Source: an uncultured Poribacteria bacterium (GTDB lineage Bacteria > Poribacteria > WGA-4E > WGA-3G). Taken from it: 64,000 bases of DNA. Shown one piece after another: positions 5,907-44,947 of this stretch (position 1 is its first letter; the number at the start of each line of letters is the position of its first letter). A program made the position numbers and the translations under genes. The notes under the pieces were generated by a model, which searched no databases, was not told the origin of the DNA, and saw only the letters and a list, made by a program, of their open reading frames with translations. The DNA is taken from assembly GCA_951828385.1 (NCBI GenBank), contig OX639973.1:1178001-1242000 (forward strand), given 5' to 3'.

Positions 5907-8894
5907 ATGGAACGAGAAAACGATGTTCAACTGATTCGTAGAATTTTATCAGGCAACGATGAAGCATTCAGTGTTTTAGTCCAAAAACACCAAAAGAGTA
6001 TTCACGCACTTGCGTGGCGGAAGGTCGGCGATTTTCACATCGCTGAAGAGATTACCCAAGACACTTTCCTTCAGGTATACAAGCACCTCGCGCAGCTGAA
6101 AAATCCGAACCAGTTTGGGGGATGGATCTATGTCATTGCGAATCGCCTTTGTCTAAAATGGCTCCAAAAAAATAAATTGTCGGTGCAATCGTTAGACGAC
6201 ACACCTATGGAAGAAATCGAGGAAGTTTCTTATACGCATTACGCATCTGACCAACGGCAGACAGAGATCGCCGAGGATCGCCATGAACTCGTCAAAAAAC
6301 TTCTATCACAACTGCCGGAAAGCGAACGCACGGTGGTGACACTCTACTATCTTGGAGAAATGACAGCGAAGGAAATCGGAAAATTTTTAGGTGTGTCAGT
6401 CAACACAGTTAAAAGTCGACTTCGCCGGGGACGCGAGCGTTTACAGGAACGGCAGGAAGAACTTGTGGTTAGCGAAACGCTTGGAAGTATCCCATTCCCC
6501 GCCCAAGTAACTGAACGTATCATGCAGGAAGTGGCTAATATGAAACCGATATCACCTCCAGTCGGCAAACCTTTGTTGCCGTGGGCGGCTGTTGGAACTG
6601 CTGCCGTTCTGGTCATATTGCTGCTCGGTGTGAGCAATCAATACCTTGCGCGTTTCCAGAAGCCGTACAGTTTTGAAGCACAATCTGAACCTACCATTGA
6701 GATCATTGACACACCTATCATTCTGGATATTGCGGCGAAACCAACTGTACAAAATCGAGTGGGTCGGGCTGCTTCCGTAGGTAAAAATAGCGGGACCGGC
6801 ACACAAGTCTCCACAACAACGACAGCATCTGTTACACTGGAGGATTCCACCAAGTTTTCGACTTCACAATGGACCCAGGGCGGCGCGCCGCCAGGGGGAC
6901 AAGTACGCGATATCTTCGCTACATCTGAAGGGACCGTCTATGCTGTTGCTCCGACAGGCATATACAGATTAGGCACAGATGCGACCGCGTGGGCACGCAT
7001 CAACACGGATATTCCAATTGGTCCATCGCTAATGCCGATGGCAGAGTATGGTGGTACCCTTTACATAGTATCCACTGATGAAATATTTGGTTCAGATGAT
7101 AGCGGTGAAACGTGGCGGACGATTGGTACCCGACCCAAGGGACACGCTGTCGGTTTCATCATTATTGATGAAACACACACCCGTTCTACGATGTATCTTG
7201 CGCTTAGAGATGAAGGGATTTATCGATCGACAGACGGTGGAATACATTGGGACTCATTTAACGATGGATTGGCAAGTAAAGAGATTTCCACAGTCGCTAC
7301 TGTTGGAAAAACAGTGTTTGCTGGCACAGCGCGCGGTCTCTATCGTCTCGATTCAGGCACTTGGAAAAAGTTGCCGGTGGAGACATCAAGAACCATCTAC
7401 GCCTTGGCAGTGTCTGAGAATAATCTCTATATTGGAACGGGGCCCGAGCTGTTGGGATTCACGCCAATAGCGGTAGAAAAAGAAGTGCCAAGAAATGAGT
7501 CGCATGCCCTCAAAATTTTCCATTCGGCTAACTTGGGAACATCATGGACTGAAATAACACCCACTGAAATAACATCGAGTTATAAATCTTACTACGATCT
7601 AATAATACCATCTGGCATGAAGATTTTGGCTGTTGGTGAAGTGCTTTTAGCGTCAACTGCCACCCAACGCTATAGTTCAACAGATAACGGAAGAACTTGG
7701 ACAGAGCTTTCAGGAGATCCGAATCTGTTCATGATCAATAGTCTGCCAGCTGTGGCTGTAAACGAGACGACGTTTTACAAAGTTAGTCCGTTTGGGATTC
7801 GTCGTACAACTGATGGCGGGAAATCGTGGCCCTTACTTATAGATGGGATGGCTGGAACAAGGTTGAAGGATTTAGTTACATTCAACGATAGATTATACGC
7901 GCATAATGGTCATGCGGTGTATCAATCAACTGACGAAGGTACGTCTTGGAAAAAGATCTCAATTACCGAGAGCTTTACTGGGAAGGTGACTACAATTACG
8001 ACCAAATCATCAAAACTGGACAGAGCTCGTATCTCCCACTCCTTTGATTCAAAATTAGTAGTTGATGACAACAATCTTTATCTTATTTCACCTAAAACTA
8101 ACAATTTGCAAATTTCCCGCGTATCTACAGATGACAATAGCCTCAGTCCAGTTCAAAGCATACCCGCTTCTGATGATAGAGCATTGTTCCATAAGACAAG
8201 TAGCGAGGAAATGAAAGATACTTACTCATCCGAGGATTCGCAAAAAGCGCATCACTCAATCGTCCCAATCGTCCCACCCCCTATACGTGGGAAGGACGCG
8301 AAAACCAAAATGATTGTAGTCTGTAACGATGTGTTCTACGCTGAACACAGACGGACGCTTTTTAAGTGGAGACTTGGTGCCCCGGAGTGGATAAGCACAG
8401 GATTAACAGACATGAGCCAAGAGTCTTATGACAACGACAGCATGGATCTCAAATTAGCGGTTTCGAGAGAAACCATCTATGTCGGTAAACGCGATGGCAA
8501 GCTGTTTCAGTCATTTGATGAAGGGAGCAGCTGGAGAGATGTTACGCCGAGCCTACCGCTTCACTTTACCCGTTTCAAGGAGATAATCTTTGCCGGTTCA
8601 ACAGTTTATGTTGCAACAGACGAAGGTGTTTTGAGTTCAGAAACGGGTGCCCACTGGCGCGTGCTAACCGATAGTGCGGGTCAGCGTCCCGTTATAGATA
8701 GATTTGCTGTCAATGGTCCTACAGTCTATGGTGCTGGCGATATCGGTGTCTATCGCTTGGATACCAACAGTCGATGGAAACAAATATCTTCAGAAGCACT
8801 CGGTGAAACGGCTGCGCTCGTTATCATTAACGATAAACTCTATAGTGCTATCAAAGATCGCGGGATATTTCACATCTCGCTTTCAGAAGAGTAG
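5907..8894 (+). CDS. ECF sigma factor fused to membrane helix and BNR propeller (copy 1)
   Basis: 995 residues. Residues about 10-85 are sigma region 2 (AEEITQDTFLQVYKHL). About 126-180 are region 4, with a clear helix-turn-helix (MTAKEIGKFLGVSVNTVKSR). A linker leads to one hydrophobic segment at about 223-241 (LLPWAAVGTAAVLVILLLG). From about 310 on there are BNR/Asp-box blades (RSTDGGIHW, RTTDGGKSW, QSTDEGTSW, QSFDEGSSW). The expected topology is sigma in the cytoplasm and propeller outside, so one chain could combine sensor and sigma factor, doing the job normally split between anti-sigma and sigma. How the sigma part is freed is unknown. No separate anti-sigma gene is nearby. It closes the cassette and is followed by a GGGCGGA hairpin. 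Confidence 0.85.
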   Translation: MERENDVQLIRRILSGNDEAFSVLVQKHQKSIHALAWRKVGDFHIAEEITQDTFLQVYKHLAQLKNPNQFGGWIYVIANRLCLKWLQKNKLSVQSLDDTPMEEIEEVSYTHYASDQRQTEIAEDRHELVKKLLSQLPESERTVVTLYYLGEMTAKEIGKFLGVSVNTVKSRLRRGRERLQERQEELVVSETLGSIPFPAQVTERIMQEVANMKPISPPVGKPLLPWAAVGTAAVLVILLLGVSNQYLARFQKPYSFEAQSEPTIEIIDTPIILDIAAKPTVQNRVGRAASVGKNSGTGTQVSTTTTASVTLEDSTKFSTSQWTQGGAPPGGQVRDIFATSEGTVYAVAPTGIYRLGTDATAWARINTDIPIGPSLMPMAEYGGTLYIVSTDEIFGSDDSGETWRTIGTRPKGHAVGFIIIDETHTRSTMYLALRDEGIYRSTDGGIHWDSFNDGLASKEISTVATVGKTVFAGTARGLYRLDSGTWKKLPVETSRTIYALAVSENNLYIGTGPELLGFTPIAVEKEVPRNESHALKIFHSANLGTSWTEITPTEITSSYKSYYDLIIPSGMKILAVGEVLLASTATQRYSSTDNGRTWTELSGDPNLFMINSLPAVAVNETTFYKVSPFGIRRTTDGGKSWPLLIDGMAGTRLKDLVTFNDRLYAHNGHAVYQSTDEGTSWKKISITESFTGKVTTITTKSSKLDRARISHSFDSKLVVDDNNLYLISPKTNNLQISRVSTDDNSLSPVQSIPASDDRALFHKTSSEEMKDTYSSEDSQKAHHSIVPIVPPPIRGKDAKTKMIVVCNDVFYAEHRRTLFKWRLGAPEWISTGLTDMSQESYDNDSMDLKLAVSRETIYVGKRDGKLFQSFDEGSSWRDVTPSLPLHFTRFKEIIFAGSTVYVATDEGVLSSETGAHWRVLTDSAGQRPVIDRFAVNGPTVYGAGDIGVYRLDTNSRWKQISSEALGETAALVIINDKLYSAIKDRGIFHISLSEE

Positions 8895-11685: not shown

Positions 11686-14658
11686 ATGAAAAAAGAAAAC
11701 GATGTTCAACTGATTCGCAGAATTTTATCAGGCAATGACGAAGCATTTAGTGTTTTAGTCCGAAAACACCAAAAGAGTATTCACGCGCTGGCGTGGCGAA
11801 AAGTTGGTGATTTTCACATCGCTGAAGAGATTACCCAAGACACTTTCCTTCAGGTATACAAGAACCTCCCGCAGCTAAAGAATCCGAACCAGTTCGGGGG
11901 ATGGATTTATGTCATTGCGAATCGACTCTGCCTTAAATGGCTCGAAAAAAATAAATCTGTGATGCAATCACTGGAAGCCACACCTATAGAAGAAATTGAG
12001 AAGCTCTCTTATACGTATCACCTATCTGACCAACGGCAGGCAGAGGTCGCCGAAGATCGCCATGAACTCGTCAAAAAACTTCTATCACAGCTGCCGGAAA
12101 GCGAACGCACGGTGGTGACACTCTTTTATCTCGGAGAAATGACAGCAAAGGAAATCGGAAAATTTTTAGGTGTGTCAGTCAACACAGTTAAAAGTCGACT
12201 TCGCCGGGGACGCGAGCGTTTACAGGAACGGCAGGAAGAACTTTTGGTTAGCGAAACGCTTGGAAGTATCCCATTCCCCGTTCAAGTAACTGAACGTATC
12301 ATGCAGGAAGTGGCTAATATGAAACCGATATCACCTCCGGTTGGCAAACCTTTGCTACCGTGGGCGGCTGTTGGAACTGCTGCTGTCTTGGTAATATTGC
12401 TGCTCGGGGCAAGCAACGCGTATCTTGCGCGTTTTCAGAAGCCGTACAGTTTTGAAGCACAATCTGAACCTACGATTCAAATCGTTGACACACCTATTGT
12501 TCTCAATATTACGGCAAAACCAACTGTGCGCAATCAAGTCGGGCGGGCTGCTATGGGTAAAAGTAGCGGTACTGGTACACAAGTCTCTACAACGACTACA
12601 GCATCTGCTACATTGGAGGATTCCGCCAAATTTTCGACTTCGCCGTGGACGCAGGGCGGCGCACCGCCAGGCGGAAAGGTCCGCGATATCTTCGCTACAT
12701 CTGAAGGAACCGTCTATGGTGTTACCCCCTCAGGAATATACAGATTAAGAACAGATACGACCGCGTGGACACGCATCAACACGGATATTCCAATTGGTCC
12801 ATCGCTAATGCCGATGGCAGAACATAGTGGTATCCTTTACATAGTATCTACCGATGAAATATTTACTTCAGATGATAGCGGTGAAATATGGCGGACGATT
12901 GGGCCCCGACCCAAGGGACACGCTGTTGGTCTCATCATCACGGATGAAACACACGCCCGTTCTACGATGTATCTTGCCCTCAGAGATGAAGGAATTTATC
13001 GATCGACAGACGGTGGGACACAATGGAATCTATTTAATGACGGATTAGCGAACAAAAGGATTTCCACAGTTGCTGCTGTTGGAAAAACAGTGTTTGCGGG
13101 TACAGCGCGCGGTCTCTATCGCCTCGACTCAGGCACTTGGAAAAAGTTGCCGGTGGAGACATCAAGAACCATCTACTCCTTGGCGGTGTCTGAGAGTAAT
13201 CTCTACGTTGGAACAGGTCCTGATCTGTTGGGATTCACGCCGATAGAAGTAGAACAAGAAGTGCCAAGAGTCGAGTCGCATGCCCTCAAGATTTTCCATT
13301 CGGCTGACTTGGGAGCGTCGTGGACGGAAATCACACCCGGTTATAAATCTGATGATCGGGTGATACCCTCTGGCATGACAGTTTTGGCTGTTGGTGAAGT
13401 GCTTTTAGTTTCGACTGCCAGCCAACAATATCATTCAACAGATAACGGTCAAACTTGGACAGAACTTTCAGGAAATACGGACATGCTCATGATCAATAGG
13501 CTTCCAGTTGTGGCCGTAGACGAGACGACCTTTTACAGAGCGGGTCTCTTTGGGATTCATCGCACAACTGATGGCGGACAATTGTGGAGATTACTTATAG
13601 ATGGAATGGTGGGAACAAGGCTAAAGGATTTAGTTACATTCAACAACAGATTATACGCGCATACCGGCTATGCGGTGTATCAATCAACTGACGAAAGTGT
13701 GTCTTGGAAAAAACTCTCCATTACCAATGAGTTTGCTGGAAAGGCGTTTACAATTACAACTGAATCATCAAAACCGGACAGAGCGCGTATCTCCAACACC
13801 TTTAACTCAAAATTGGTAGTTGATAACAACAATCTTTATCTTATTTCACCTAAAACTAACAACTTGCAAATTTCCCGCCTATCTACAGATGACAATATAC
13901 GCAGTCCCGTTCAAAGCATACCCGCTTCTGATGATGAAGCATTACGCCGCAAATTACCGACAGGTAGCGAGGCAGCGAAAGAGACTCACTTATCCGAGGG
14001 TTCTAAAAAAGATCACCACTCAATTGTATCAATCGTTCCACCTCCCATAAATAACAAGAAAGCGGGAGCCAGAATAGTCGTAGTCTCTAACGATGTATTC
14101 TACGCTGAGCAGGAACGTACGCTTTTTAAGTGGAGACCTGGTGATCTGGAATGGACAAACACAGGATTAACAGACAAGAGCCAACAGTCTTATGACAACG
14201 ACAACCAAGATCTCAAATTAGCAGTTTCGGGAGAAACCATTTATGTCGGTAAACGCGATGGTAAACTGTTTCAATCGCTTGATGGAGGGGGCAGCTGGAG
14301 AGACATTACACCCAACGTTCCTCTTCACTTCGCCCGTTTCAAGGAGATAACCTTTGCCGGTTCAACAGTTTATGTTGCAACAGACGAAGGTGTTTTGAGT
14401 TCAGAAACAGGTGCCCACTGGCGCGTGCTAACCGATAGTTCGGGGCGGCATCCGATTATAGATAGATTTGCTGTGAATGGCACGACAATCTATGGTGCCG
14501 GCGATATCGGCGTTTATCGATTGGATACCAATAGCCGATGGGAGCGAATCTCTTCAGAAACCCTGGGTGAAGTCGTTTCCCTCGTCGTCATTAACGATAA
14601 GCTCTATAGTGCTATCAAAGATCGCGGGATATTTCACATCGCGCTTGCAGAAGAGTAG
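11686..14658 (+). CDS. ECF sigma factor fused to membrane helix and BNR propeller (copy 2)
   Basis: 990 residues with the same order as the gene at 5907: sigma region 2 (AEEITQDTFLQVYKNL), region 4 (MTAKEIGKFLGVSVNTVKSR, identical in the recognition helix), one membrane helix near residue 225, then BNR blades. The DNA-binding part is almost unchanged between copies, so both should read the same promoters. The propeller differs more (for example QLWRLLIDGMVG against KSWPLLIDGMAG), which could mean different ligands. The start ATGAAAAAAGAA follows a GGAGCATTCTG ribosome site. The flank after the stop is shared with copy 1 over about 100 bases. Confidence 0.85.
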   Translation: MKKENDVQLIRRILSGNDEAFSVLVRKHQKSIHALAWRKVGDFHIAEEITQDTFLQVYKNLPQLKNPNQFGGWIYVIANRLCLKWLEKNKSVMQSLEATPIEEIEKLSYTYHLSDQRQAEVAEDRHELVKKLLSQLPESERTVVTLFYLGEMTAKEIGKFLGVSVNTVKSRLRRGRERLQERQEELLVSETLGSIPFPVQVTERIMQEVANMKPISPPVGKPLLPWAAVGTAAVLVILLLGASNAYLARFQKPYSFEAQSEPTIQIVDTPIVLNITAKPTVRNQVGRAAMGKSSGTGTQVSTTTTASATLEDSAKFSTSPWTQGGAPPGGKVRDIFATSEGTVYGVTPSGIYRLRTDTTAWTRINTDIPIGPSLMPMAEHSGILYIVSTDEIFTSDDSGEIWRTIGPRPKGHAVGLIITDETHARSTMYLALRDEGIYRSTDGGTQWNLFNDGLANKRISTVAAVGKTVFAGTARGLYRLDSGTWKKLPVETSRTIYSLAVSESNLYVGTGPDLLGFTPIEVEQEVPRVESHALKIFHSADLGASWTEITPGYKSDDRVIPSGMTVLAVGEVLLVSTASQQYHSTDNGQTWTELSGNTDMLMINRLPVVAVDETTFYRAGLFGIHRTTDGGQLWRLLIDGMVGTRLKDLVTFNNRLYAHTGYAVYQSTDESVSWKKLSITNEFAGKAFTITTESSKPDRARISNTFNSKLVVDNNNLYLISPKTNNLQISRLSTDDNIRSPVQSIPASDDEALRRKLPTGSEAAKETHLSEGSKKDHHSIVSIVPPPINNKKAGARIVVVSNDVFYAEQERTLFKWRPGDLEWTNTGLTDKSQQSYDNDNQDLKLAVSGETIYVGKRDGKLFQSLDGGGSWRDITPNVPLHFARFKEITFAGSTVYVATDEGVLSSETGAHWRVLTDSSGRHPIIDRFAVNGTTIYGAGDIGVYRLDTNSRWERISSETLGEVVSLVVINDKLYSAIKDRGIFHIALAEE

Positions 14659-18404: not shown

Positions 18405-18557
18405 TTGAGACTGTGAATCAGTAGTCAGCTTGAGAGTTTGTCGTTTTTACGTTGATGGTTTTCGAGAGAAAACCATCCGCCAAAAAGCAGGAGAAAAACA
18501 GTGAGAGAATTTGGAACGCAAGGTCCGGTCAATTCCAAAGATCACACGGAGGTTACC

Positions 18558-19394
18558 ATGAATGCCATAAACAACTGGCTCCCCGCAGAGCCTGATCTTG
18601 AAACGGTCTGTAAAACGTACAGCGACCCGATTTATGCCCTCTCCCAAGCCGAAGTGCCCGCTATCATGCTCCGAAATGCCTATTCGCCCTCTCAATGCCA
18701 CGGACTCATCCATCGGTTCACAAATATGGGATTGATGCGTGATGAAGCGGACACCAATTCCGCTGATAAACGCACCCGAATCGACATCGGTACCAGCCTC
18801 GGTAACCGTGGCGGCGATAAGACAAAATTTTTAGCACACGCGCAAACAACAGAACATCTTTTTAACTTTCTATTCAACGGATTTGATGATCCTGTTGACC
18901 TCATCTATGATTCGCTCACTGCGCTTTCCCCTGGAAAAGAGGTTAAGGTTGCCCGTGAATCGGACGGTTCACGCTACGGGCCTGCTATTTTCCGCGTCCA
19001 CTACGAAACCCATAGCTACAAGCCACACATCGATCATGTCAAATATCGTGAGCAACGCACCGATTATGAAGTTTATCGCTTTGAGCATCAGTTTGCAGGC
19101 GTGTTATGTGTCCAAAATGCAGACGAAAACGGAACAGGAACGCAAGCTATCCTGCATCGGTGTCTCTGGTCGGAGGAAATTCAACCCCATATCGCCGAGG
19201 AAACTTTTGACAAGTATGCCGCTGCAAATGGCGTGGAAAACTATCAAGTCGATCTGAATCAAGGGGATCTCTATTTCTTCAACACGCGGTGTATCCATGA
19301 AGTCCCGCCCGTTCAAGGTACACGCGCCCGAATCGTTTTGGCGGTTTTTATCGGATATTCCCCAGACGATAATGAGATATATGTCTGGTCATGA
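18558..19394 (+). CDS. 2OG-Fe(II) oxygenase family protein
   Basis: 278 residues from the ATG at 18558, chosen because GGAGG lies six bases upstream; a GTG at 18501 is possible but has no good site. The C-terminal half shows a prolyl-hydroxylase-like metal site: YKPHIDHVKY (His about 156, Asp about 158) and CIHEVPPVQGTRARIVL (His about 247, Arg about 257 for 2-oxoglutarate). The N-terminal part includes AEVPAIMLRNAYSPSQC. The substrate is unknown. Pairing with the PhyH-type gene suggests a shared hydroxylation or tailoring job, but nothing else in the context defines it. Confidence 0.75.
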   Translation: MNAINNWLPAEPDLETVCKTYSDPIYALSQAEVPAIMLRNAYSPSQCHGLIHRFTNMGLMRDEADTNSADKRTRIDIGTSLGNRGGDKTKFLAHAQTTEHLFNFLFNGFDDPVDLIYDSLTALSPGKEVKVARESDGSRYGPAIFRVHYETHSYKPHIDHVKYREQRTDYEVYRFEHQFAGVLCVQNADENGTGTQAILHRCLWSEEIQPHIAEETFDKYAAANGVENYQVDLNQGDLYFFNTRCIHEVPPVQGTRARIVLAVFIGYSPDDNEIYVWS

Positions 19395-19500: not shown

Positions 19501-22389
19501 ATGAAAAAAATAATAATATCTTCTATCTTCTTGACACTCTTCATCCTTTTAAATGCCTATCTACCAAATAGCTTCGCCCAAGATCCATCCCTATTCAGTC
19601 TACCTGAAGGTGCCAAAGCACGACTCGGTAAAGGATGGATAAATGAGCTACAGTATTCATCAGATGGCACACGCTTAGCGGTCGCAACCTCTATCGGTGT
19701 TTGGCTCTATGACACACAGACTTATCAGGAAGTCGTCCTGCTCACAGAACACACACGCGGTGTTAATAGCGTCGCGTTTAGTCCCGATAGCGGAACGCTT
19801 GCCAGTGGCGGTAGGGACGGCAACATTGATCTATGGAATACTACCACAGGCGAACATCAGCAAACGCTGCGCGGACATACCGATGCCGTTTACAACATCG
19901 CCTTCAATGCCAGCGGAGATACATTCGCAAGTGCCAGTGCTGACACCACTATTATTCTATGGAACGTCGCATCCGGCGAACAACAACAAACGCTGCGCGG
20001 ACATACCGATGCCGTTTACGACCTCGCCTTCAATGCCAGCGGAGATACACTCGCAAGTGCCAGTGCTGACACCACTATTATTCTATGGAACGTCGCATCC
20101 GGTGAGGAACAGCGGACATTACAAGGCCATACGGATGCTGTCTATACTGTCGCTTTCAACCCAAATGGAGGAAACCTTGTGAGTGGCGGTAGAGATGGCA
20201 CTATCCGCTTGTGGCATACGACCTTCGGTGTGTCCCAGCGGACGCTACCTGGGCACACGGGTGCTATCTTAAGTATTGCGTTCGGGGCAAATGGTGATAC
20301 CATCGCGAGTGGGAGTGGCGATGGCACGATCCGCGTGTGGAATGCTGCATCCGGTCAGCACAATCTGACGCTTGAAGGACATACGAGGGCGGTTCTGAGC
20401 GTTGCATACAGTTCCAGTGGTGGAACGCTTGCGAGTGCCAGTGCGGATGGCACCATTCGCTTGTGGGACGCGGTCTTCGGCGGACACAGGCAGACACTCA
20501 CAGGGTATACGGATTATATTAGTAGCGTCGCATTTAGTACGACTGCTGGAACGCTTGCAAGCGGTAGCGCGGACGGGACAGTGCATCTGTGGAACACAAA
20601 CTCTGGCGTATCCACGTACACTTTGACCGAGCATACTGCTTGGGTCCGGAGCATCGCATTCAGTCCTGACGGTCAAACGTTGGCAAGTGGTAGTGATGAC
20701 GGCACCATCCGTTTATGGAATGTCGCATCCGGCGAACATCAGCAAACACTCACAGGACATGCAGATGCTGTCAGAAGCGTTACGTTCAGCCCGGATGGTA
20801 GCGTACTCGCCAGTGCAAGTTTAGATGGCACCATCCACCTATGGAACGCTGCCACAGGTGAACACCAGCAGGCGTTGATAGGGCATACAGAGGGGGTACT
20901 GACCCTTGCGTTCAACCCAGATGGTGACACACTCGCAAGCGGCAGTACGGACGGGACTATCTATCTATGGGATGTTACATCCGCTCAACATGAGCAGACG
21001 CTGATTGGACATACGGATTATGTCAGAAGCGTTGTGTTCAGCCCGAATGGGGGGACACTCGCGAGTGGGAGTGATGACGGCACCATCCGTCTATGGGATA
21101 CCGCTTTCGGCGAGCAGAAGCGGACGTTAACTGGACACACAAATTACGTCCTTAGCATCGCATACAGTTCAGATGGCAACACGCTCGTAAGCGCAAGCTT
21201 CGATGGCACGATCCGTCTGTGGGATACTATCTCTGGTGCGCGCGTGCAAACCCTGAGAGGGCATACAAACGGTGTCCTTGGTGTCACACTCAGTCCTGAT
21301 GGAGAGACGCTCGCCAGTGCAAGTTTAGATGGCACAGTGCTCCTATGGAATTTCAGTCCACCAACTAATATGTACGCGACTGTGAGCTTTTCGCCATCTC
21401 CAGTACAATCACCTGCGATCGGGGAACAACTCACATTTTCTCTTAGTATTGCAGACGGAAGCACCGTGGCGGGTTATCAGGCAACCGTACGGTTTGACCC
21501 CTCTGCGCTCCGTTTTCTTGAAAGCACAAATGGAGACTACCTACCGTCGGACGCGTACGTGATCCCTGCGCTCATTGCAGAGAACAGCGTAACGCTTGCC
21601 GCAACGTCTCTCGGCGGAGAAGCCAGCGGTTCTGGAACGCTCACTAATCTTACATTCGAGGTTGTCACTCCGAAAGCGTCTACGCTGACGTTATCCGACG
21701 TACGCCTCACTAACAGTGTTGGTAGGATTTCATACGCGCGCGTTAAAAGTGGCCAAGTCACAGCACCGATGCTGCTAACAGGAGATCTGAATGGCGATGG
21801 TGTCGTGAATGTCCAAGATTTAGCACTTGTCGCCGCAAACTTTTCACAGACAGGTGAAAATTTAGCGGATGTCAACGGAGATGAAATCGTTGATATTGTC
21901 GATCTCACGCTGGTAGCCGGCGCACTAATGGATGCCGCAGGCGCGCCAGCCGCGTGGAGACGAGATGCCGAAATTGCTTTCACAAGAACAGATGTACAAC
22001 AGTGGCTACGGGAAGCAGAACAAATCACACTCACAGATCCCACTTTTCAACGCGGTATCTATATGCTGCAACAACTCCTTGCAGCATTGACACCGAACGA
22101 GACAGCACTTCTGCCAAACTATCCGAACCCCTTTAATCCAGAAACATGGATACCCTATCAACTATCAGTCCCTGCGGATGTGACACTCACGATTTATGCA
22201 GCAGATGGAAAAGTAGTGCGAACTTTAGGGCTCGGACATCAACCCGTGGGTACTTATCAGGATCGGAGCCGCGCAGCGTATTGGGACGGCAATAACGAAC
22301 TCGGTGAACCCGTGGCGAGCGGTGTATATTTCTATACGTTAACTGCTGGAAATTTCACGGCAACCCGGAAGATGGTGATTACGAAATAG
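19501..22389 (+). CDS. secreted twin WD40 propeller with cohesin, dockerin and C-terminal sorting domain
   Basis: 962 residues. Signal peptide 1-26 (NSFAQ|D). LPEGAKARLGKG opens the first blade. I count 14 WD40 blades to about residue 615, enough for two seven-bladed propellers. Residues about 620-756 look like a cohesin (VSFSPSPVQSPAIGEQLTFS, then YQATVRFDPSALRFLES). About 760-812 is a type I dockerin with two calcium loops (GDLNGDGVVNVQDL and DVNGDEIVDIVDL). About 869-962 is a FlgD/T9SS-like domain (LLPNYPNPFNPETWIPYQLS ... YFYTLTAGNFTATRKMVITK). Having both cohesin and dockerin in one chain would allow self-assembly. AAAGGAG precedes the ATG. Confidence 0.85.
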   Translation: MKKIIISSIFLTLFILLNAYLPNSFAQDPSLFSLPEGAKARLGKGWINELQYSSDGTRLAVATSIGVWLYDTQTYQEVVLLTEHTRGVNSVAFSPDSGTLASGGRDGNIDLWNTTTGEHQQTLRGHTDAVYNIAFNASGDTFASASADTTIILWNVASGEQQQTLRGHTDAVYDLAFNASGDTLASASADTTIILWNVASGEEQRTLQGHTDAVYTVAFNPNGGNLVSGGRDGTIRLWHTTFGVSQRTLPGHTGAILSIAFGANGDTIASGSGDGTIRVWNAASGQHNLTLEGHTRAVLSVAYSSSGGTLASASADGTIRLWDAVFGGHRQTLTGYTDYISSVAFSTTAGTLASGSADGTVHLWNTNSGVSTYTLTEHTAWVRSIAFSPDGQTLASGSDDGTIRLWNVASGEHQQTLTGHADAVRSVTFSPDGSVLASASLDGTIHLWNAATGEHQQALIGHTEGVLTLAFNPDGDTLASGSTDGTIYLWDVTSAQHEQTLIGHTDYVRSVVFSPNGGTLASGSDDGTIRLWDTAFGEQKRTLTGHTNYVLSIAYSSDGNTLVSASFDGTIRLWDTISGARVQTLRGHTNGVLGVTLSPDGETLASASLDGTVLLWNFSPPTNMYATVSFSPSPVQSPAIGEQLTFSLSIADGSTVAGYQATVRFDPSALRFLESTNGDYLPSDAYVIPALIAENSVTLAATSLGGEASGSGTLTNLTFEVVTPKASTLTLSDVRLTNSVGRISYARVKSGQVTAPMLLTGDLNGDGVVNVQDLALVAANFSQTGENLADVNGDEIVDIVDLTLVAGALMDAAGAPAAWRRDAEIAFTRTDVQQWLREAEQITLTDPTFQRGIYMLQQLLAALTPNETALLPNYPNPFNPETWIPYQLSVPADVTLTIYAADGKVVRTLGLGHQPVGTYQDRSRAAYWDGNNELGEPVASGVYFYTLTAGNFTATRKMVITK
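19861..20112 (+). repeat. 126-bp tandem repeat inside the WD40 gene
   Basis: Two units of 126 bp (19861-19986 and 19987-20112), each one WD40 blade of 42 residues, differ at only a few bases (for example TACAACATCG against TACGACCTCG). All other blades in the gene are far more diverged. This points to a recent blade duplication. Confidence 0.8.
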
Positions 22390-22691: not shown

Positions 22692-25214
22692 ATGAAAATG
22701 CTGCGTATTTCAATTCCAATACTATTGATAGTTTCAAGCTACTCTCTATCACACGTTTTTGCTCAGGATTATACACAATTTCGTTTACCCGAAGGTACCA
22801 AAGCACGATTGGGCAAGGGAGGAATAGGTGAGATCGCGTATTCTCCTGACGGCAACCGTTTGGCAATCGCCAATAACATCGGAATTTGGATCTACGATGC
22901 ACACAGTCTCGTGGAACTGGATCTGCTCACTGGACATACGGATACCACCACAAGCATTGCGTTCAGCCCAGATGGAAACACCCTCGTCAGTAGCAGTTAT
23001 GATGAGACGGTACGACTGTGGGATGTTAACACGGGTACTCTTAAATCCACACTCACTGGACATACAAAATCTATTAACAGCATCGCCTTCAGTCCGGACG
23101 GCACTATCCTCGCTGGCGGCGGTTCGGATGAGACAGTGCATCTCTGGGATCCGGTGAGCGGTGCACACAAAGCAACGCTCGTTGGACATACGCGCACCAT
23201 CAGCACAATAGCCTTTAGTCCGGACAGCAAAACCCTCGCGAGTGGGGCTTGGGACAATACGGTGCGATTGTGGGATATTGCGACTGAAAAAGAGAAAACT
23301 GTCCTCACCGATCATACCTACTTCGGTGAACATACCTCTGGTATCTCTAATGTAGCATTCAGTTCCGATGGACAATTGCTCGTAAGCGCAGCTTTCAATG
23401 AAGAAGGCGTGTACGTCTGGGATACTGTCACGGGCAAACACGAAAGAACGGTTGATACGGGTAAGATTTCAATCCTTGCCTTTCACCCGGATAGAAAAAC
23501 GCTTGCAACCGGTGCGCGATACGAATTGAATTTATGGGATGTTGTTAGCGGTGAACATAAAGCAGCACTCACCAAACATACATCGTTTGTTAATTCCCTT
23601 GCTTTCAGTCCGGATGGCAGCACCCTCGTCAGCGGCGGTGGTTCGCAGCTGCTGCTCTGGGACACCGAGACCGGCGTACAAAAAGGCGAAATCGGCGGGT
23701 ATCTGTCAAATGGATGGTGTATCGCGTTCTCACCTGATGGTAGCACCCTCGCGAGTACGGGTGGATACCACATTGTGCATCTATGGGATGTCAGCAATAG
23801 GCAGTATAAAGCAGCACTCATTGCGGAGAGAATTGATGATTGGATCGGTAGCATTGCCTTCAGTCCCGATGGCAAGACCCTTGCCGGAGAAGGGGGTTGG
23901 CGGATATACCTATGGGATACTGAAAGGGCATATCTCAAAACAACTATGAAAGGGTATACTGGGAGCGGTGTCTCTGGCGGCGGAATTAGGGCACTTGCCT
24001 TTAGTCCAGATGGACGCTTCCTTGCAAGTGGAAGTGGACATACAGACATGAAGATACAGATCTGGTATGGTGGACGCACTCACAAAGCAACACTTACGGG
24101 ACACACTGAAGGGATTACTTCTATCGCTTTTCATCCGAATAGCCGCACCCTCGCAAGTGGAAGTTCGGATCAAACAGTCCGCTTATGGGATATTATCAAT
24201 GAGACAGATAAAATGACACTTACTGGGCATACGGACGGGGTCAATAGCGTCGCGTTCAGTCCGGACGGAAAAACGCTCGCAAGTGGGAGCCGTGACACGA
24301 CCATCCGTCTCTGGGATGCTGTCACAGGCGCGTACAAAACCACACTCACTGGACACATAGATAGTGTTGAGAGTGTCGCATTCAGTCCCGATAGCCAAAC
24401 GCTCGCAAGTGGTGGTGGCCGGCATGACAAAACAGTGCAGTTGTGGGACGTTAATACTGGTATGCAACAAATGACATTCACCGGACACACGGGAAGAGTC
24501 TCAAGCCTCGCGTTCAGTCCGGATGGACGCACCCTTGCAAGCGGAAGTTCGGATCAAACAATCCTATTGTGGGATGTCACACCGTTAGTAGAAAGGCCCC
24601 AGATTGCGGAGGACGTCAACCGCGATGGGACGGTGGATACGCAAGATTTGAAGTTTATCGCCGCGCACTTCGGGCTGCTCGGAGAAAACGACGCAGATGT
24701 CAACGCGGACGGCGTTGTCAACATCATTGATCTCGTTCTGGTCGCCGGTGAACTTGGTGTGGGCGCCGATGCCCCTGCTGCACACCTGCGAATTACAGAG
24801 CCGCTCACTGCAGCAGAAGTCCAACTTTGGCTAACAGCCGCGCAACGCATTGACAACACAACCTTTGTCTTTCAGAAAGGTATTACGAACCTTGAACGTC
24901 TTTTGGCGGCACTGTCTCCAAAGGAGACAATACTTCTGCCGAATTATCCGAACCCATTTAATCCTGAGACATGGATACCCTATCAGTTGGCTGAACCAGC
25001 AGATGTGACCCTCCACATCTATGCCGCCAGTGGAGCATTGATTCGGACATTCACCTTGGGGTTCCAATCTGAGGGTATCTATCAAAGTCCAAGTCGCGCC
25101 GTGCATTGGGATGGGAAAAATGAGCTTGGTGAACAGGTCGCCAGTGGTATCTACTTCTACACCCTCTCCGCTGGACACGCCACAATGACCCGTAGAATGG
25201 TAATACGGAAATGA
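22692..25214 (+). CDS. secreted twin WD40 propeller with dockerin and sorting domain
   Basis: 840 residues from the ATG at 22692 (GGGGG eight bases upstream). It starts MKMLRISIPILLIVSSYSLS and is cleaved near VFAQ|DYTQF. The opening signature is LPEGTKARLGKGGIG. Again 14 WD40 blades can be counted. Residues about 638-690 are a dockerin (DVNRDGTVDTQDLKFIAAHF and DVNADGVVNIIDLVLVAGEL). The last 95 residues are the FlgD/T9SS-like domain. No cohesin is present, so it could dock onto a cohesin-bearing partner such as the neighbour at 19501. The ligand of the propellers is unknown. Confidence 0.85.
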   Translation: MKMLRISIPILLIVSSYSLSHVFAQDYTQFRLPEGTKARLGKGGIGEIAYSPDGNRLAIANNIGIWIYDAHSLVELDLLTGHTDTTTSIAFSPDGNTLVSSSYDETVRLWDVNTGTLKSTLTGHTKSINSIAFSPDGTILAGGGSDETVHLWDPVSGAHKATLVGHTRTISTIAFSPDSKTLASGAWDNTVRLWDIATEKEKTVLTDHTYFGEHTSGISNVAFSSDGQLLVSAAFNEEGVYVWDTVTGKHERTVDTGKISILAFHPDRKTLATGARYELNLWDVVSGEHKAALTKHTSFVNSLAFSPDGSTLVSGGGSQLLLWDTETGVQKGEIGGYLSNGWCIAFSPDGSTLASTGGYHIVHLWDVSNRQYKAALIAERIDDWIGSIAFSPDGKTLAGEGGWRIYLWDTERAYLKTTMKGYTGSGVSGGGIRALAFSPDGRFLASGSGHTDMKIQIWYGGRTHKATLTGHTEGITSIAFHPNSRTLASGSSDQTVRLWDIINETDKMTLTGHTDGVNSVAFSPDGKTLASGSRDTTIRLWDAVTGAYKTTLTGHIDSVESVAFSPDSQTLASGGGRHDKTVQLWDVNTGMQQMTFTGHTGRVSSLAFSPDGRTLASGSSDQTILLWDVTPLVERPQIAEDVNRDGTVDTQDLKFIAAHFGLLGENDADVNADGVVNIIDLVLVAGELGVGADAPAAHLRITEPLTAAEVQLWLTAAQRIDNTTFVFQKGITNLERLLAALSPKETILLPNYPNPFNPETWIPYQLAEPADVTLHIYAASGALIRTFTLGFQSEGIYQSPSRAVHWDGKNELGEQVASGIYFYTLSAGHATMTRRMVIRK

Positions 25215-25336: not shown

Positions 25337-27607
25337 ATGAAAACCAGACAATTTTCGATCCTAACGCTACTGATGGTTTCAGCCCTATTTTTACAAAATA
25401 TCGCCGCCCAAGACTATACACAATGGCATCTACCTGAAGGGGCGAAAGCACGTATCGGGAAAGGCTTTATATCTGACAACATCGCCTTTTCTCCTGATAG
25501 TAATCTACTCGCTGTTCCAACCTCAATCGGCATCTGGATTTACGATGCTTACACAAGAGAAGCAGTGCGCCTGATCACGGGACCTACGGACACTGTCGAG
25601 TGTATCGCTTTTAGCCCAGATGGCAGTCTCCTCGCCAGCAGTAGCGATGGCGATACCGTCCATCTGTGGGATATTCACGCCAGTACACATAAAACTGTCT
25701 TCACTGGACGTATTTCGTCGGTTCGCAGCATCGCGTTCAGTCCAGACGGTCGGACCCTCGCGGGCGGTTCGCGCTCCACCAGGGACCAAGCGGCGTATTT
25801 GTGGGATGTCAATACCGGTAATCTCCGAGCAACCCTCTCGGCGCATACAAGTGGTGTTGATTCTATTGCCTTCAGCCCTGACGGTAAAACAATCGCAACT
25901 TTAAGTGACGCGATCGTGTATCTGTGGGATACTTCAAATAACGATCTCAAAAACACATTCACAAGGGATATAAATAACGATCACATAGACAATGTCAATG
26001 TGATTACCTTCAGTCCAAATGGTGAGACCCTCGCAACTGCCAATTGGGACGATACAGTGTCTCTATGGGATGTTGCCACCGCTGAACTCAGCGCGACACT
26101 CACAGGACATACTAACAGTGTTTATAGTGTCGCCTTTAGCCCAGATGGGAAAACACTCGCAAGCGGCAGCAGTGATGGCACGGTGTGTCTCTGGAACGCT
26201 GCGAGTGGCACGTATAAAACTACGCTCATCGGACACGGACTCGAAGTCAGAAGCGTTGCGTTCAGTCCGGACGGAAAACTAATCGCAAGTAGCAGTCTGG
26301 ATGGCACGGTGTGTCTCTGGGATGCTGTCAATCACGACCGGACAGCAACATTTACCGGACATATAACGGAATTTACAAGTATTGCCTTCAGCCCGGATGG
26401 GCAAACCCTCGCTCATGCTGGTGGTTGGGACAAAAAAGTTTACCTCTGGGATGTTGAAACGGTTCATCAAAAACGCGTTCTCATTGGGCATACCTACGAA
26501 GTTACCTCAGTCGCATTCAGTCCGGATGGAAGAACAGTCGCAAGTGGTGGTGGTGTTGACGACCCGAAGATACGCCTCTGGGATCCAAACAGTGGTGAAC
26601 TGAAAATGATACTCGTCGGGCATCAGTGGGGCGGTATCAATGATATTGCATTTAGCCATGATAGCCGTTTAATCGCGAGCGCCGGTCGCGACGAAAAGGT
26701 GTGCCTATGGAAGACCGAAACCGGCTACCATCAAGCGACATTCGTCAAGCATATAACCGGTGTTTCAAGCATCGCCTTCAGTCCCAATGGTCAAATACTT
26801 GCCAGTGCTGGTGGCCAAGCAGACGCAACCGTACGACTCTGGGATATTTTCAATAGAGAAGAAATAGCAACCCTCCGTGGACGTTCAAACTGCATTGCTT
26901 TCAGTCCAGACGGACAGACGCTTGCCAGCGGATGGATCAACATATCGCTACGGGATATTAGCAGTGGTGAACTCAAATCTGAACTCAGTGGACATACCGA
27001 TAGGCTTCGGAGCATTGCCTTTAGCCCGGACGGGCGGATTTTAGCAAGTGGTAGCTCGGACACGACCGTCCGACTCTGGGACGTTGAAACTGCCACCCAT
27101 ATAACCACCCTCACTGGACATACCAAGCGAATCACGCGTATTGCATTCAGCCCGGATGGAAAAACGCTTGCGACAGCGAGTGATGATGCAACGGTACTAT
27201 TGTGGGATATTCCGCTGATAATAGAAAACGGAATCAAATCATTACAGATTGTAGAGAATGTAAATCCTAATGGTAGAGTGGATCCTGCACATGCTTTGGC
27301 AGTCCAAATACCGCAAGAAACAGCACTTCTGCCAAACTACCCAAATCCCTTTAATCCAGAAACATGGATACCGTATCAACTATCAGTCCCTGCGGATGTG
27401 ACACTCACGATTTATGCAGCAGATGGAAAAGTAGTGCGAACTTTGGGGCTCGGACATCAACCCGTGGGTACTTATCAGGAGCGGAGTCGCGCAGCGTATT
27501 GGGACGGCAATAACGAACTCGGTGAAACCGTCGCAAGTGGCGTATATTTCTATACACTCACGGCAGGCGATTTTATTGCAACACGTAAGATGTTGATTAT
27601 GAAATAG
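25337..27607 (+). CDS. secreted twin WD40 propeller with sorting domain
   Basis: 756 residues, AGGAG ribosome site. Signal peptide 1-24 (LFLQNIAAQ|D), then LPEGAKARIGKG. There are 14 WD40 blades (first SDNIAFSPDSNLLAV, last RITRIAFSPDGKTLATASDD). No cohesin or dockerin: a linker of about 35 residues (VNPNGRVDPAHALAV, perhaps a dockerin relic) leads to the FlgD/T9SS-like domain. The DNA of that last domain is nearly identical to that of the gene at 19501, unlike the rest of the gene, which suggests gene conversion. Confidence 0.85.
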   Translation: MKTRQFSILTLLMVSALFLQNIAAQDYTQWHLPEGAKARIGKGFISDNIAFSPDSNLLAVPTSIGIWIYDAYTREAVRLITGPTDTVECIAFSPDGSLLASSSDGDTVHLWDIHASTHKTVFTGRISSVRSIAFSPDGRTLAGGSRSTRDQAAYLWDVNTGNLRATLSAHTSGVDSIAFSPDGKTIATLSDAIVYLWDTSNNDLKNTFTRDINNDHIDNVNVITFSPNGETLATANWDDTVSLWDVATAELSATLTGHTNSVYSVAFSPDGKTLASGSSDGTVCLWNAASGTYKTTLIGHGLEVRSVAFSPDGKLIASSSLDGTVCLWDAVNHDRTATFTGHITEFTSIAFSPDGQTLAHAGGWDKKVYLWDVETVHQKRVLIGHTYEVTSVAFSPDGRTVASGGGVDDPKIRLWDPNSGELKMILVGHQWGGINDIAFSHDSRLIASAGRDEKVCLWKTETGYHQATFVKHITGVSSIAFSPNGQILASAGGQADATVRLWDIFNREEIATLRGRSNCIAFSPDGQTLASGWINISLRDISSGELKSELSGHTDRLRSIAFSPDGRILASGSSDTTVRLWDVETATHITTLTGHTKRITRIAFSPDGKTLATASDDATVLLWDIPLIIENGIKSLQIVENVNPNGRVDPAHALAVQIPQETALLPNYPNPFNPETWIPYQLSVPADVTLTIYAADGKVVRTLGLGHQPVGTYQERSRAAYWDGNNELGETVASGVYFYTLTAGDFIATRKMLIMK

Positions 27608-39975: not shown

Positions 39976-41745
39976 AGGAATACCGCTGCACAAGACAACG
40001 CTGCACCCACCAACGATAACTATACATTCGAGACGATTGATGTTCCAGGTGTAGATTTTTTAGCATTGACAGCGAGTAGCGACTTTGAGGATTACGCCGG
40101 CTACACGAAAAGTCCCGATGGTGAAAAGGAAGTCGCCTTTACGCTCATTGATGACGTTTTTACGACATACGACTTCCCGGATTCACAGAAAACGCATTTC
40201 TATGCGCTCGGTAACAGTGGACGAGCCGCAGGACACTACCAGGACAGCGATGGTCTCTATCACGGTGTCATCTTAGAAAATGGCGAATTGCGGCAATACG
40301 ATTTCCCGGGTGCCGTCGAAACGCAGATATATGGGATTAGTGATGCGACGGGCACCCTGACGGGTAATTTTATAGACGCTTCCGGCGTTCGCCGTGGATT
40401 CTCAGGCGATACAATCGTTGAGGCTCCTGAGGCATCGGAAACTTATGCTGACTTTGTGAACGCGAGTGGTCGTATGGTGGGTAGCTACATAGATGCTGAT
40501 GGACTATATCATCCATACATGCGTCAAGCAAATGGCAGGTTTATATCTCTCGATCTTCCAAACGCAGCACAATTTGAATACTTTTTTGTACACGGTATCA
40601 ACGATGTTGGAACACTCGTTGGTCGATCCAAAAAGGTCGGGGATGTCCCGCGCACCTCTGTCGGTTCACTCCAGCACGGGCTACATCCAGTCCAGTATCC
40701 GGGTAGCGTTAGCACGGAAGGGTGGAATATCAATCAGGACGGTTCCGTCGTCGGACACTACGACTCACCCGATGGACGCAGACACGGATTTATCGCAAGA
40801 CCCACTGATGCGGCAATGAGCGATCATTTTGGCAACGCCTACACCGTCACGCTGTCTAAAGGGTTGAACATGATTTCTGTGCTTTTAGCATCACCAACAC
40901 CGATGACTGCCAAATCACTTGTCGCCATGACAGGGGCAACAACCGTCATCACGCTTGATACGGCAAGCCAACGTTTCGTCGCGTGGACACCCAGCGCACC
41001 CGACGACGGGTTCACAGTCGAAGGCGGAAAAGGCTATATCGTCAATGTCCCGAAAACTCGCAACTTCGCCTTCATTGGTGCATCTTGGACGCATCAAACC
41101 GAGGCGGCCGCCGCAGCCCCACCTGCCATATCTACGGAGGTGCCGCGGGAAGCATGGGCATTCGTTGTCAGTGGGCATTTGGAAGGTGAACCCGCGTTTG
41201 ATGGCTACAAGGTCATCGTCCGTAATCTGAGAACAAACAGCATCATAACTGCCTCAGTGCAAGCGGATTACTTCGCTGCTGCAACTGCTGACTTGACGCG
41301 ACGGAGCGTCGTCCAAGTTGGAGATGTAGTTGAAGTACGTGTTATCGGTCCGAATGGAAATTTTGAATCACACACCCTCAGTGTTAAAGTGACCCCTGAG
41401 CATCTCGCAAACGCGGTCTTGTCTGTCCGGCTTGATGGCATCGGTCAACCCACACAGAATCTCCTGTTGCAAAACTACCCGAATCCGTTTAACCCGGAGA
41501 CATGGATTCCGTATCAGCTCTCCGAAGACAGCTCTGTATCGGTCTCCATTTATGATACAACCGGTCAGTTGATTCGCACACTTTCGCTCGGTTTTCAATC
41601 CGCAGGCTTTTACAATAGTCGCGAGCGTGCCGCGTATTGGGATGGACGTAATACCCTCGGAGAACGCGTTGCCAGTGGTATCTATTTCTACCAGTTGACA
41701 ACGCCATCTTTTCAGCAAACACGGCGACTCGTCATTGTAAAGTAG
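39976..41745 (+). CDS. HAF-repeat protein lacking its signal peptide (5'-truncated)
   Basis: The open frame begins right after an in-frame TAA at 39973 and reads RNTAAQDNAAPTNDNYTFET, matching residues from about 29 of the protein at 42260 (RDTAAQDNAASASDNYTFET). The signal-peptide codons are gone, and the frame abuts the terminator of the previous gene. The only starts are internal, such as TTG at 40066. The rest is intact: one HAF propeller (YALGNSGRAAGHYQDSDGLY, NINQDGSVVGHYDSPDGRRH), a linker domain (SKGLNMISVLLASPTPMTAK) and the FlgD/T9SS-like domain (LLQNYPNPFNPETWIPYQLS). It is probably not exported; treat it as a likely pseudogene or a donor for recombination. Confidence 0.7.
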   Translation, partial: RNTAAQDNAAPTNDNYTFETIDVPGVDFLALTASSDFEDYAGYTKSPDGEKEVAFTLIDDVFTTYDFPDSQKTHFYALGNSGRAAGHYQDSDGLYHGVILENGELRQYDFPGAVETQIYGISDATGTLTGNFIDASGVRRGFSGDTIVEAPEASETYADFVNASGRMVGSYIDADGLYHPYMRQANGRFISLDLPNAAQFEYFFVHGINDVGTLVGRSKKVGDVPRTSVGSLQHGLHPVQYPGSVSTEGWNINQDGSVVGHYDSPDGRRHGFIARPTDAAMSDHFGNAYTVTLSKGLNMISVLLASPTPMTAKSLVAMTGATTVITLDTASQRFVAWTPSAPDDGFTVEGGKGYIVNVPKTRNFAFIGASWTHQTEAAAAAPPAISTEVPREAWAFVVSGHLEGEPAFDGYKVIVRNLRTNSIITASVQADYFAAATADLTRRSVVQVGDVVEVRVIGPNGNFESHTLSVKVTPEHLANAVLSVRLDGIGQPTQNLLLQNYPNPFNPETWIPYQLSEDSSVSVSIYDTTGQLIRTLSLGFQSAGFYNSRERAAYWDGRNTLGERVASGIYFYQLTTPSFQQTRRLVIVK

Positions 41746-42259: not shown

Positions 42260-44947
42260 ATGCACACTCAGATTAGAACCAGCTTTTTATTTTACATCTT
42301 TACGTTGTTGATGTGCTTTAATTCCTTTTTCCTAAGAGACACTGCTGCACAAGACAACGCTGCATCCGCCAGCGATAACTATACCTTCGAGACGATTGAT
42401 GTTCCGGGTGTAGATTTTTTAGCAGTGACAGCAAGTAGCGACTTTGAGGATTACGCCGGCTACACCAAAAGTGCTGATGGTGAAAAAGAGGTTGCCTTTA
42501 CGCTGATTGACGGTGTTTTCACCACCTACGATTTCCCGGGATCCCAGAACACTTATTTTTTTGCGCTCGGTAATAATGGCAACGCTGCAGGACACTACGA
42601 GGATAGCGATGGGCTGTATCATGGAGTCGTCTTGGAAAATGGTGAATTGCGACAATACGACTTCCCGGATGCTGTCCAGACATTCCTTTACGGTATTTCT
42701 GATACGACAGGGGCACTGACAGGGAATTTTATAGACGCTTCTGGCGTGCGCCGTGGGTTCTCAGGAAACGAAATCATTGAATTCCCCGGAGCAGTGGAAA
42801 CTTATGCCGATTTCGTGAATTCAAGCGGTGGTATGGTCGGCAGCTACGTAGATGCTGATGGCATATATCATCCATACATACGTACCCCGACTGGCAGGTT
42901 TGTATCTCTCGACCTTCCAAGAGCAGCAAATCTGGAATACTTTTTTGTGCATGGTATCAACGATGCAAATGTTATCGTTGCCCGAACCAAAGCGGTGGAT
43001 GATGTCCCGAGCACTTATGTCGGCACGTTCCAGCAGGGCCTACAGGAATTTCAGGTTCCAGATAGTGTTAGCACGGAGGGCTATAATATTAATCAGGACG
43101 GTTCGATCGTCGGACACTATGACTCCGCAGATGGACGCAGACACGGATTTATCGCCAACCCGATAACAGACACCGCTGCGCCAGTCGATGATCAGCCCGT
43201 TGCCACACCTGCTGATTCCAACTATACCTTTGAGAGTATTGATGTTCCGGGTGTAGACTTTTTAGCCTTGACAGCGAGTAGCGACTTTGAAGATTACGCT
43301 GGCTACACCAAAAGTGCTGACGGTGAAAAAGAAGTCGCCTTTACGCTCATTGATGACGTTTTTACGACATACGACTTCCCGGGTTCGCAGAAAACGCATT
43401 TCTATGCGCTCGGTAATAATGGCAATGCCGCCGGACACTACCAAGACAGCAACGGTCTGTTTCACGGTGTCGTCTTAGAAAATGGCGAACTACGACAACA
43501 TGATTTTTCGGGTGCCGTCGAAACAGAAATATACGGTATTAGTGATGCGACGGGCGCACTGACGGGTAATTTTATAGACGCTTCTGGTGTGCGCCGTGGC
43601 TTCTCAGGCGATACAATCGTTGAGGCTCCTGAGGCATCGGAAACTTATGCCGACTTTGTGAATGCGAGTGGTCGTATGGTGGGTAGCTACATAGATGCTG
43701 ACGGCATATATCATCCTTATGCGCGCACCGCGACGGGTCGCTTTTTATCTTTCGACCTTCCACAAGCCGAAAAATTTGAATACTTTTTTGTCCACGGTAT
43801 TAACGATGTAGGAATGCTCGTTGGTCGGTCCAAAAAGGTCGGGGATGTCCCGCGCACCTCTGTCGGTTCACTCCAGCACGGGCTACATCCAGTCCAGTAT
43901 CCGGGTAGCATTAGCACGGAGGGCTGGAATATCAATCAGGACGGTTCCGTTGTCGGACACTATGACTCACCCGATGGACGCAGACACGGTTTTATCGCAA
44001 GACCTGTCTCACAAGTAGAAGCGGAAAGTTATAGCAACGCCTACACCGTCACGCTGTCTAAAGGGTTGAACATGATTTCTGTGCCTTTGGCAGCACCAAC
44101 GCCGATGACTGCAAAAAACCTTGTCGCTTTGACAGGAGCAACAACCATCATCACGCTTGATGTGGCAAGCCAACAGTTCGTCGCTTGGACACCCAGCGCA
44201 CCCGACGACGGTTTCCTGATTGAAGGCGGCAAAGGCTATATCGTCAATGTCTCACAAACCCGCAACTTTGCATTCGTTGGCTCACAATGGACAAATCAAA
44301 CCGAGGCCGCCGCAGCACCAACTGCCATATCCACGGAGATGCCGCAGGAAGCATGGGCATTTGTTGTCAGTGGACACTTGGAAGGTAAACCCGCGTTTGA
44401 CCGAAACCACCAAGTCATCGTCCGGAACCTCAGAACAAATAGCACAATAACGGCCCCGATACAAGGGGATTACTTCGCTGCTGCTACCGCTGACCTGACG
44501 CGGCGGAGCGTTGTCCGAGTTGGAGACGTGGTTGAAGTGCGTGTCATTGGTCCAGATGGAAACTTTGAATCACAAACCCTCAGTTTTACAGTGACGCCTG
44601 AGAGCTTGGCAAACGCGGTCTTGTCTGTCCGGCTTGATGACATCCGTCAACCGACGCAGAATCGCCTGTTGCAGAACTATCCGAATCCGTTTAACCCGGA
44701 GACATGGATTCCCTATCAACTCTCGGAGGACAGCCCCGTATCGGTCTCCATTTATGATACAATGGGTCAGTTGGTTCGCACACTGCCACTCGGTTTCCAA
44801 TCCGCAGGCTTTTACAATAGTCGGGAACGTGCTGCGTATTGGGATGGGCGTAATACCCTCGGTGAACGCGTTGCGAGTGGTATCTATTTTTACCAATTGA
44901 CAACGCCATCCTTCCAGCAAACACGGCGGCTCGTCATTGTAAAGTAG
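42260..44947 (+). CDS. secreted protein with two HAF propellers and sorting domain
   Basis: 895 residues, GAGG site. Signal peptide to about residue 31 (FFLRDTAAQ|D). Two consecutive HAF-repeat domains follow (about 38-300 and 318-590), each starting YTFE(T/S)IDVPGVDFLA and ending DG(S)(I/V)VGHYDS.DGRRHGFIA. HAF repeats ('extracellular repeat, HAF family') are poorly characterised propeller-like modules. Then come a linker domain (SKGLNMISVPLAAPTPMTAK), a beta-rich domain (AWAFVVSGHLEGKPAFDRNH) and the FlgD/T9SS-like end (YFYQLTTPSFQQTRRLVIVK). The doubled domain is unique to this copy. Confidence 0.82.
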   Translation: MHTQIRTSFLFYIFTLLMCFNSFFLRDTAAQDNAASASDNYTFETIDVPGVDFLAVTASSDFEDYAGYTKSADGEKEVAFTLIDGVFTTYDFPGSQNTYFFALGNNGNAAGHYEDSDGLYHGVVLENGELRQYDFPDAVQTFLYGISDTTGALTGNFIDASGVRRGFSGNEIIEFPGAVETYADFVNSSGGMVGSYVDADGIYHPYIRTPTGRFVSLDLPRAANLEYFFVHGINDANVIVARTKAVDDVPSTYVGTFQQGLQEFQVPDSVSTEGYNINQDGSIVGHYDSADGRRHGFIANPITDTAAPVDDQPVATPADSNYTFESIDVPGVDFLALTASSDFEDYAGYTKSADGEKEVAFTLIDDVFTTYDFPGSQKTHFYALGNNGNAAGHYQDSNGLFHGVVLENGELRQHDFSGAVETEIYGISDATGALTGNFIDASGVRRGFSGDTIVEAPEASETYADFVNASGRMVGSYIDADGIYHPYARTATGRFLSFDLPQAEKFEYFFVHGINDVGMLVGRSKKVGDVPRTSVGSLQHGLHPVQYPGSISTEGWNINQDGSVVGHYDSPDGRRHGFIARPVSQVEAESYSNAYTVTLSKGLNMISVPLAAPTPMTAKNLVALTGATTIITLDVASQQFVAWTPSAPDDGFLIEGGKGYIVNVSQTRNFAFVGSQWTNQTEAAAAPTAISTEMPQEAWAFVVSGHLEGKPAFDRNHQVIVRNLRTNSTITAPIQGDYFAAATADLTRRSVVRVGDVVEVRVIGPDGNFESQTLSFTVTPESLANAVLSVRLDDIRQPTQNRLLQNYPNPFNPETWIPYQLSEDSPVSVSIYDTMGQLVRTLPLGFQSAGFYNSRERAAYWDGRNTLGERVASGIYFYQLTTPSFQQTRRLVIVK

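Follow-up and report, generated by a model that had tools for sequence, protein, structure and literature searches.

A WD40 protein with cohesin, dockerin and a T9SS-type tail: candidate surface adaptor of a cellulosome-like, non-cellulosomal network in Candidatus Poribacteria

The clostridial cellulosome is made up of cohesin and dockerin modules, with the dockerins carried on enzymes. Both modules are already known outside cellulosomes, and in archaea they occur together in one chain (PMC9012536). Cloacimonadota are known to have a cohesin protein whose C-terminal domain serves attachment (PMC8542988), and the cohesin and dockerin of Archaeoglobus fulgidus have already served as binding partners (PMC9705933). 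Poribacteria live in abundance as symbionts of sponges (PMC3909097). In 2014, Kamke and colleagues described many poribacterial WD40 proteins with a TIGR04183 tail, the same combination in the same phylum as the one considered here; their paper mentions neither cohesin nor dockerin, and it reports finding none of the structural genes for the Por system (PMC3909097). Many WD40 and leucine-rich repeat (LRR) proteins of Poribacteria have no assigned role.

The window analyzed here is a stretch of 64,000 nucleotides (C1:1178001-1242000) from a single-contig, 6.66-Mb Candidatus Poribacteria genome. Gene 1 encodes, in order, a signal peptide, 14 WD40 blades, a cohesin, a dockerin, a helical linker and a T9SS-type C-terminal sorting domain:

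19501..22389, plus strand: gene 1, 962 aa (open reading frame, Pfam, NCBIfam, full-length AF2 model)
19501..19578, plus strand: Sec signal peptide, MKKIIISSIFLTLFILLNAYLPNSFA (read off the translation)
19660..21350, plus strand: WD40 array, 14 blades of 42 aa (Pfam, blade spacing)
21406..21687, plus strand: cohesin, Pfam core at residues 636-729 (Pfam, predicted fold)
21781..21927, plus strand: dockerin type I, residues 761-809 (Pfam, ligand conservation)
22117..22386, plus strand: T9SS type A / FlgD_ig-like C-terminal sorting domain, NYPNPFNPETWIPYQL... (Pfam, NCBIfam)

The signal peptide is presumably cleaved before QD. The WD40 array probably forms two seven-bladed propellers; in the full-length AF2 model it has pLDDT values mostly above 90 and repeats a four-stranded pattern. 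Within the array, a 126-bp tandem repeat at 19849-20102, 96% identical, is a recently duplicated blade. The tail (residues 874-960) matches both FlgD_ig (PF13860) and TIGR04183 (40.4 bits; cut-off 23). Judged from sequence, the signal peptide and this tail give gene 1 the features of a surface protein. Three further genes in the window (40066-41745, 42260-44947 and 46301-48118) have FlgD_ig / Por_Secre_tail C-termini and match nothing else in Pfam at E 1e-5. The window also holds two paralogues in which an ECF sigma-70 factor is fused to a sortilin/YCF48-like propeller (5907-8894 and 11686-14658), a WelO5-like 2OG-Fe(II) enzyme that adjoins a PhyH gene (18501-19394), and a Type ISP restriction-modification enzyme (53695-56766).

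The earlier note on this DNA had read gene 1 as a cohesin followed by a dockerin with two calcium loops, and both domains match their Pfam profiles above cut-off. Cohesin (PF00963) scores 33.9 bits in the genome search and 31.7 bits on a C-terminal fragment (cut-off 24.1); Dockerin_1 (PF00404) scores 32.9 and 30.8 bits, respectively (cut-off 22.9). At 31 to 34 bits, these profile scores are modest. An AlphaFold2 model built from 67 homologues gives the cohesin region a pLDDT of about 90 and the nine-stranded jelly-roll of a cohesin, with the whole fold spanning approximately residues 624-754 (21370-21762). In the full-length AF2 model, made with only 20 sequences, the same region falls below 50. 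Because this shallow model is not confident there, the assignment of the fold rests on the deeper alignment and the Pfam match. The best solved matches to the predicted domain are cohesins, with non-cellulosomal ones from A. fulgidus and Clostridium perfringens among the first. The top match is the A. fulgidus non-cellulosomal cohesin 2xdh (TM-score 0.79 on the target, Z 16.9), which is the closest solved fold but is archaeal and shares 14% sequence identity. Cellulosomal and C. perfringens cohesins follow with Z between 15 and 16.7, several of the cellulosomal ones at 2.0 to 2.2 Å rmsd. These matches bear out the cohesin fold that had been proposed for residues 620-756. The dockerin contains two intact calcium loops, DLNGDGVVNVQDL and DVNGDEIVDIVDL, and their D/N calcium ligands, on which the same reading depended, are conserved throughout the alignment of 67 sequences. 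The cohesin has 80 named relatives, all from Candidatus Poribacteria, with the nearest at 94% identity.

Cohesin and dockerin are separated by a linker of 7 residues in 59 of 67 homologues. With the two modules adjacent and their spacing constant, the dockerin might fold back onto the cohesin of its own chain and close both. We regard such a clasp as highly improbable: across a linker of this length, the dockerin does not seem able to reach the usual binding face of the cohesin. The model built from 67 homologues, with a pTM of only 0.61, supports no confident packing either way.

Cohesins and dockerins are widespread in this genome. There are 14 cohesin matches in 12 open reading frames (ORFs), with no more than two per ORF, and dockerins in approximately 71 ORFs, about 62 of which lack a cohesin. 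Nine of the 12 cohesin ORFs also carry a dockerin (hypergeometric p ~1e-15 for 71 dockerin ORFs and an assumed 5500 genes), which excludes chance as the cause of their co-occurrence. Counted as ORFs, some of them fragments or related paralogues, the architectures are cohesin, dockerin and tail (8), cohesin and tail (3), cohesin and dockerin (1), dockerin and tail (25), dockerin at the very C-terminus (33) and other (4). Across the phylum, cohesin occurs in 70 of 71 Poribacteria genomes and dockerin in 51 of 51. Among complete ORFs homologous to gene 1, two dockerin halves follow the cohesin in 73 of 77, and the order cohesin-dockerin-tail is found in 70 of 77. The earlier note had presented cohesin and dockerin in one chain as a departure from the usual arrangement; within Poribacteria it is the rule. 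For the same reason, we dropped the idea that the cis pair is special to gene 1.

One use of such a pair, suggested in the earlier note, would be a head-to-tail homopolymer, in which each gene 1 molecule inserts its dockerin into the cohesin of its neighbor, giving a chain of WD40 propellers. The presence of both modules in one chain, joined by the short linker, fits this proposal, as does conservation of the arrangement in approximately 20 orthologues. Nevertheless, binding to the cohesin would be contested by many other dockerin proteins, a dockerin is absent from three cohesin ORFs, and putative enzymes are among the possible clients. We therefore consider a homopolymer quite unlikely.

The two genes downstream of gene 1 also encode WD40 proteins with a signal peptide, and both end in a T9SS-type tail:

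22692..25214, plus strand: gene 2, signal peptide, WD40, dockerin and T9SS-type tail (open reading frame, Pfam, translation)
24609..24752, plus strand: dockerin of gene 2, DVNRDGTVDTQDL and DVNADGVVNIIDL (Pfam, 31.3 bits)
25337..27607, plus strand: gene 3, signal peptide, WD40, dockerin remnant and T9SS-type tail (open reading frame, Pfam)
27254..27298, plus strand: degenerate dockerin loop of gene 3, ENVNPNGRVDPAHAL (translation, comparison with relatives)

The reading frame of gene 2 opens at 22659, and 22692 is its likely start. Its tail scores 31.2 bits against TIGR04183 and that of gene 3 scores 36.0 (cut-off 23 for both). Gene 2 had been described as having a dockerin and no cohesin. This agrees with the Pfam searches of genome and fragments, which place a dockerin in it and return no cohesin match. 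In gene 3, Pfam finds no dockerin, and only the one-loop remnant is present, as in the earlier description of a relic-like linker. The word relic is apt, because the dockerin is retained by the third gene of this cluster in several related genomes: both loops are present in L113, L116, L117 and L119, and in L124 the first loop is present, after which the available stretch ends. The dockerin of the third gene is degenerate or lost in the window and in L107. A similar remnant occurs in L112, where it is ambiguous whether the gene corresponds to gene 2 or gene 3. Other Poribacteria (L107, L113, L115, L116, L117, L119 and L124) share the order gene 1 - gene 2 - gene 3. In these clusters, the second gene always has gene 2 as its best match, and the third has gene 3, except in L116. 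From its domain content, the dockerin-only gene 2 is a plausible partner of gene 1.

Similar pairings are found elsewhere. The cohesin carriers include WD40 proteins, LRR proteins and cytochrome-like CxxCH+LRR proteins, and at least four carrier genes in the genome lie next to a dockerin gene. Three of the CxxCH+LRR carriers adjoin a gene for a protein with dockerin and LRRs. Five loci (L077, L051, L061, L075 and L081) combine cytochrome-like CxxCH motifs, internalin-like LRRs and a cohesin in one chain. Positions 10-11 of the dockerin helix are mostly I/V followed by L/Q, whether or not a cohesin is present in cis, a likeness suggesting that the dockerins could form one binding class with shared specificity.

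Some of the possible clients resemble enzymes. At least seven of the approximately 33 ORFs that end in a dockerin score above the curated cut-off for the glycosyl-hydrolase-like families GHL15 or DUF6259, and metallopeptidase profiles match others. Putative glycosyl hydrolases (GHL15, GHL10 and DUF6259) with a terminal dockerin and no T9SS tail are encoded at L065, L047, L046, L045 and L070, and several dockerin-ending putative glycosyl hydrolases also contain LRRs. When one dockerin-tagged GHL15 protein was searched by sequence against solved structures, matches were confined to the LRRs (internalins and others), and the GHL15 part had none. The earlier note had suggested that the modules build a surface polymer rather than assemble enzymes. 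The surface half of this suggestion is in keeping with the signal peptide and T9SS tail, but the exclusion of enzymes is disfavored, because dockerins sit on putative glycosyl hydrolases and metallopeptidases in the same genome.

Tails are unevenly distributed between cohesin carriers and possible clients. A T9SS tail is present on 11 of 12 cohesin ORFs; of the 62 ORFs with a dockerin and no cohesin, 25 have one (Fisher p 0.001). This difference is to be read as a trend because the items include paralogues and fragments and are thus not independent. It fits surface-anchored carriers and tagged clients. The position of the dockerin also allows a purely structural role. In 25 further ORFs a dockerin precedes the sorting tail, mostly at a near-constant distance, and may thus belong to the tail itself instead of being a plug. 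On such a reading, the dockerin would serve the T9SS tail as a calcium-stabilized linker, the cohesin would be an Ig-like spacer, and neither would bind a partner. In most dockerin-and-tail proteins the dockerin starts approximately 110 residues before the NYPNPFN motif, as a fixed cassette would, and dockerins outnumber cohesins about 6:1. Yet roughly 33 dockerins form the very end of their protein and are followed by no tail, there is strong conservation of both calcium loops and of the hydrophobic contact positions, and cohesins and dockerins co-occur across the phylum. We judge a purely structural role unlikely.

The tails also raise the issue of export. The genome contains a SprA-like frame of 2312 aa whose matches are collinear in one frame and under the 200-bit cut-off, and SprA-like counterparts occur in 71 of 71 Poribacteria genomes. 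Given this collinearity and recurrence, we keep the label despite the low score. At least eight PorV-family genes score above cut-off. Three PorU-like frames, for which, as for SprA-like, the label denotes matches under curated cut-offs, are also present, and one directly precedes a PorV-family gene. The SprA-like frame and the PorU-like/PorV-family pair lie at G000:C1:3714284-3718126 and C1:3752845-3758639. These genes bear on the question left from 2014 of which system exports the TIGR04183-tailed proteins.

Taken together, we propose that the approximately 70 cohesin and dockerin proteins encoded in this genome probably serve to build a cellulosome-like, non-cellulose protein network on the cell surface. 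That gene 1 is a T9SS-displayed surface adaptor of such a network we hold with even confidence. The signal peptide would take the protein out of the cytoplasm, and the T9SS would carry it across the outer membrane, where the sorting tail would leave it on the surface. There, the 14-blade WD40 double propeller would face outward as a binding platform. The cohesin would capture dockerin-bearing clients in trans; for the 12 cohesin ORFs, these would be drawn from the approximately 62 dockerin-only ORFs, including putative glycosyl hydrolases, LRR proteins and metallopeptidases. For its part, the gene 1 dockerin, which the 7-residue linker makes unlikely to fold back in cis, would plug into the cohesin of another protein and so link carriers to one another and to clients. 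We infer for gene 1 a surface location, binding in trans, formation of a network and any role it may have at the host surface.

No route across the outer membrane is known for dockerin proteins that lack a tail, which may therefore never meet surface cohesins. Conceivably, cohesin-dockerin binding acts, in conjunction with the T9SS, as a second sorting code, with tail-less, dockerin-terminal proteins binding cohesin carriers in the periplasm and crossing the outer membrane on the carrier's tail. We consider this extension of the adaptor model improbable. If cohesin-dockerin plugs do tie WD40 and LRR proteins and putative enzymes together on the surface, they would provide a concrete, testable mechanism for building the outer surface and perhaps also for handling host matrix.

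Our literature search found no paper on Poribacteria with cohesin and dockerin, none on WD40 with cohesin and dockerin, and none describing a Poribacteria set that spans the phylum and has a T9SS tail and carriers of WD40, LRR and cytochrome-like type; a paper on Latescibacteria nowhere mentions cohesin or dockerin. Among described systems, the clostridial cellulosome has a scaffoldin with many cohesins, whereas cohesin ORFs in this genome contain one or two, and nothing among the domains covered here points to cellulose as the target. The cohesins of C. perfringens GH84/GH33 proteins (2jh2, 2w1n and 2vo8) have a similar fold and occur outside cellulosomes but, unlike the Poribacteria carriers, sit on the glycoside hydrolases themselves. 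ANME archaeal proteins are non-cellulosomal and, as in Poribacteria, combine a dockerin and cohesins in one chain. S-layer domains are suggested for their attachment, and the common dockerin proteins are ABC-transporter binding proteins; unlike in Poribacteria, neither T9SS nor WD40 is mentioned in the passage describing them (PMC9012536). Candidatus Stygibacter (Cloacimonadota), also from a non-clostridial candidate phylum, has dockerin-tagged enzymes, comparable to the putative ones here, and a cohesin protein whose conserved C-terminal domain for cell-surface attachment resembles the Poribacteria tail (PMC8542988). However, that protein is a single scaffoldin of 3,755 aa that contains tandem cohesins as well as CBM2/CBM3 domains (PMC8542988), whereas Poribacteria have many proteins with one or two cohesins each, fused to WD40, LRR or cytochrome-like modules.
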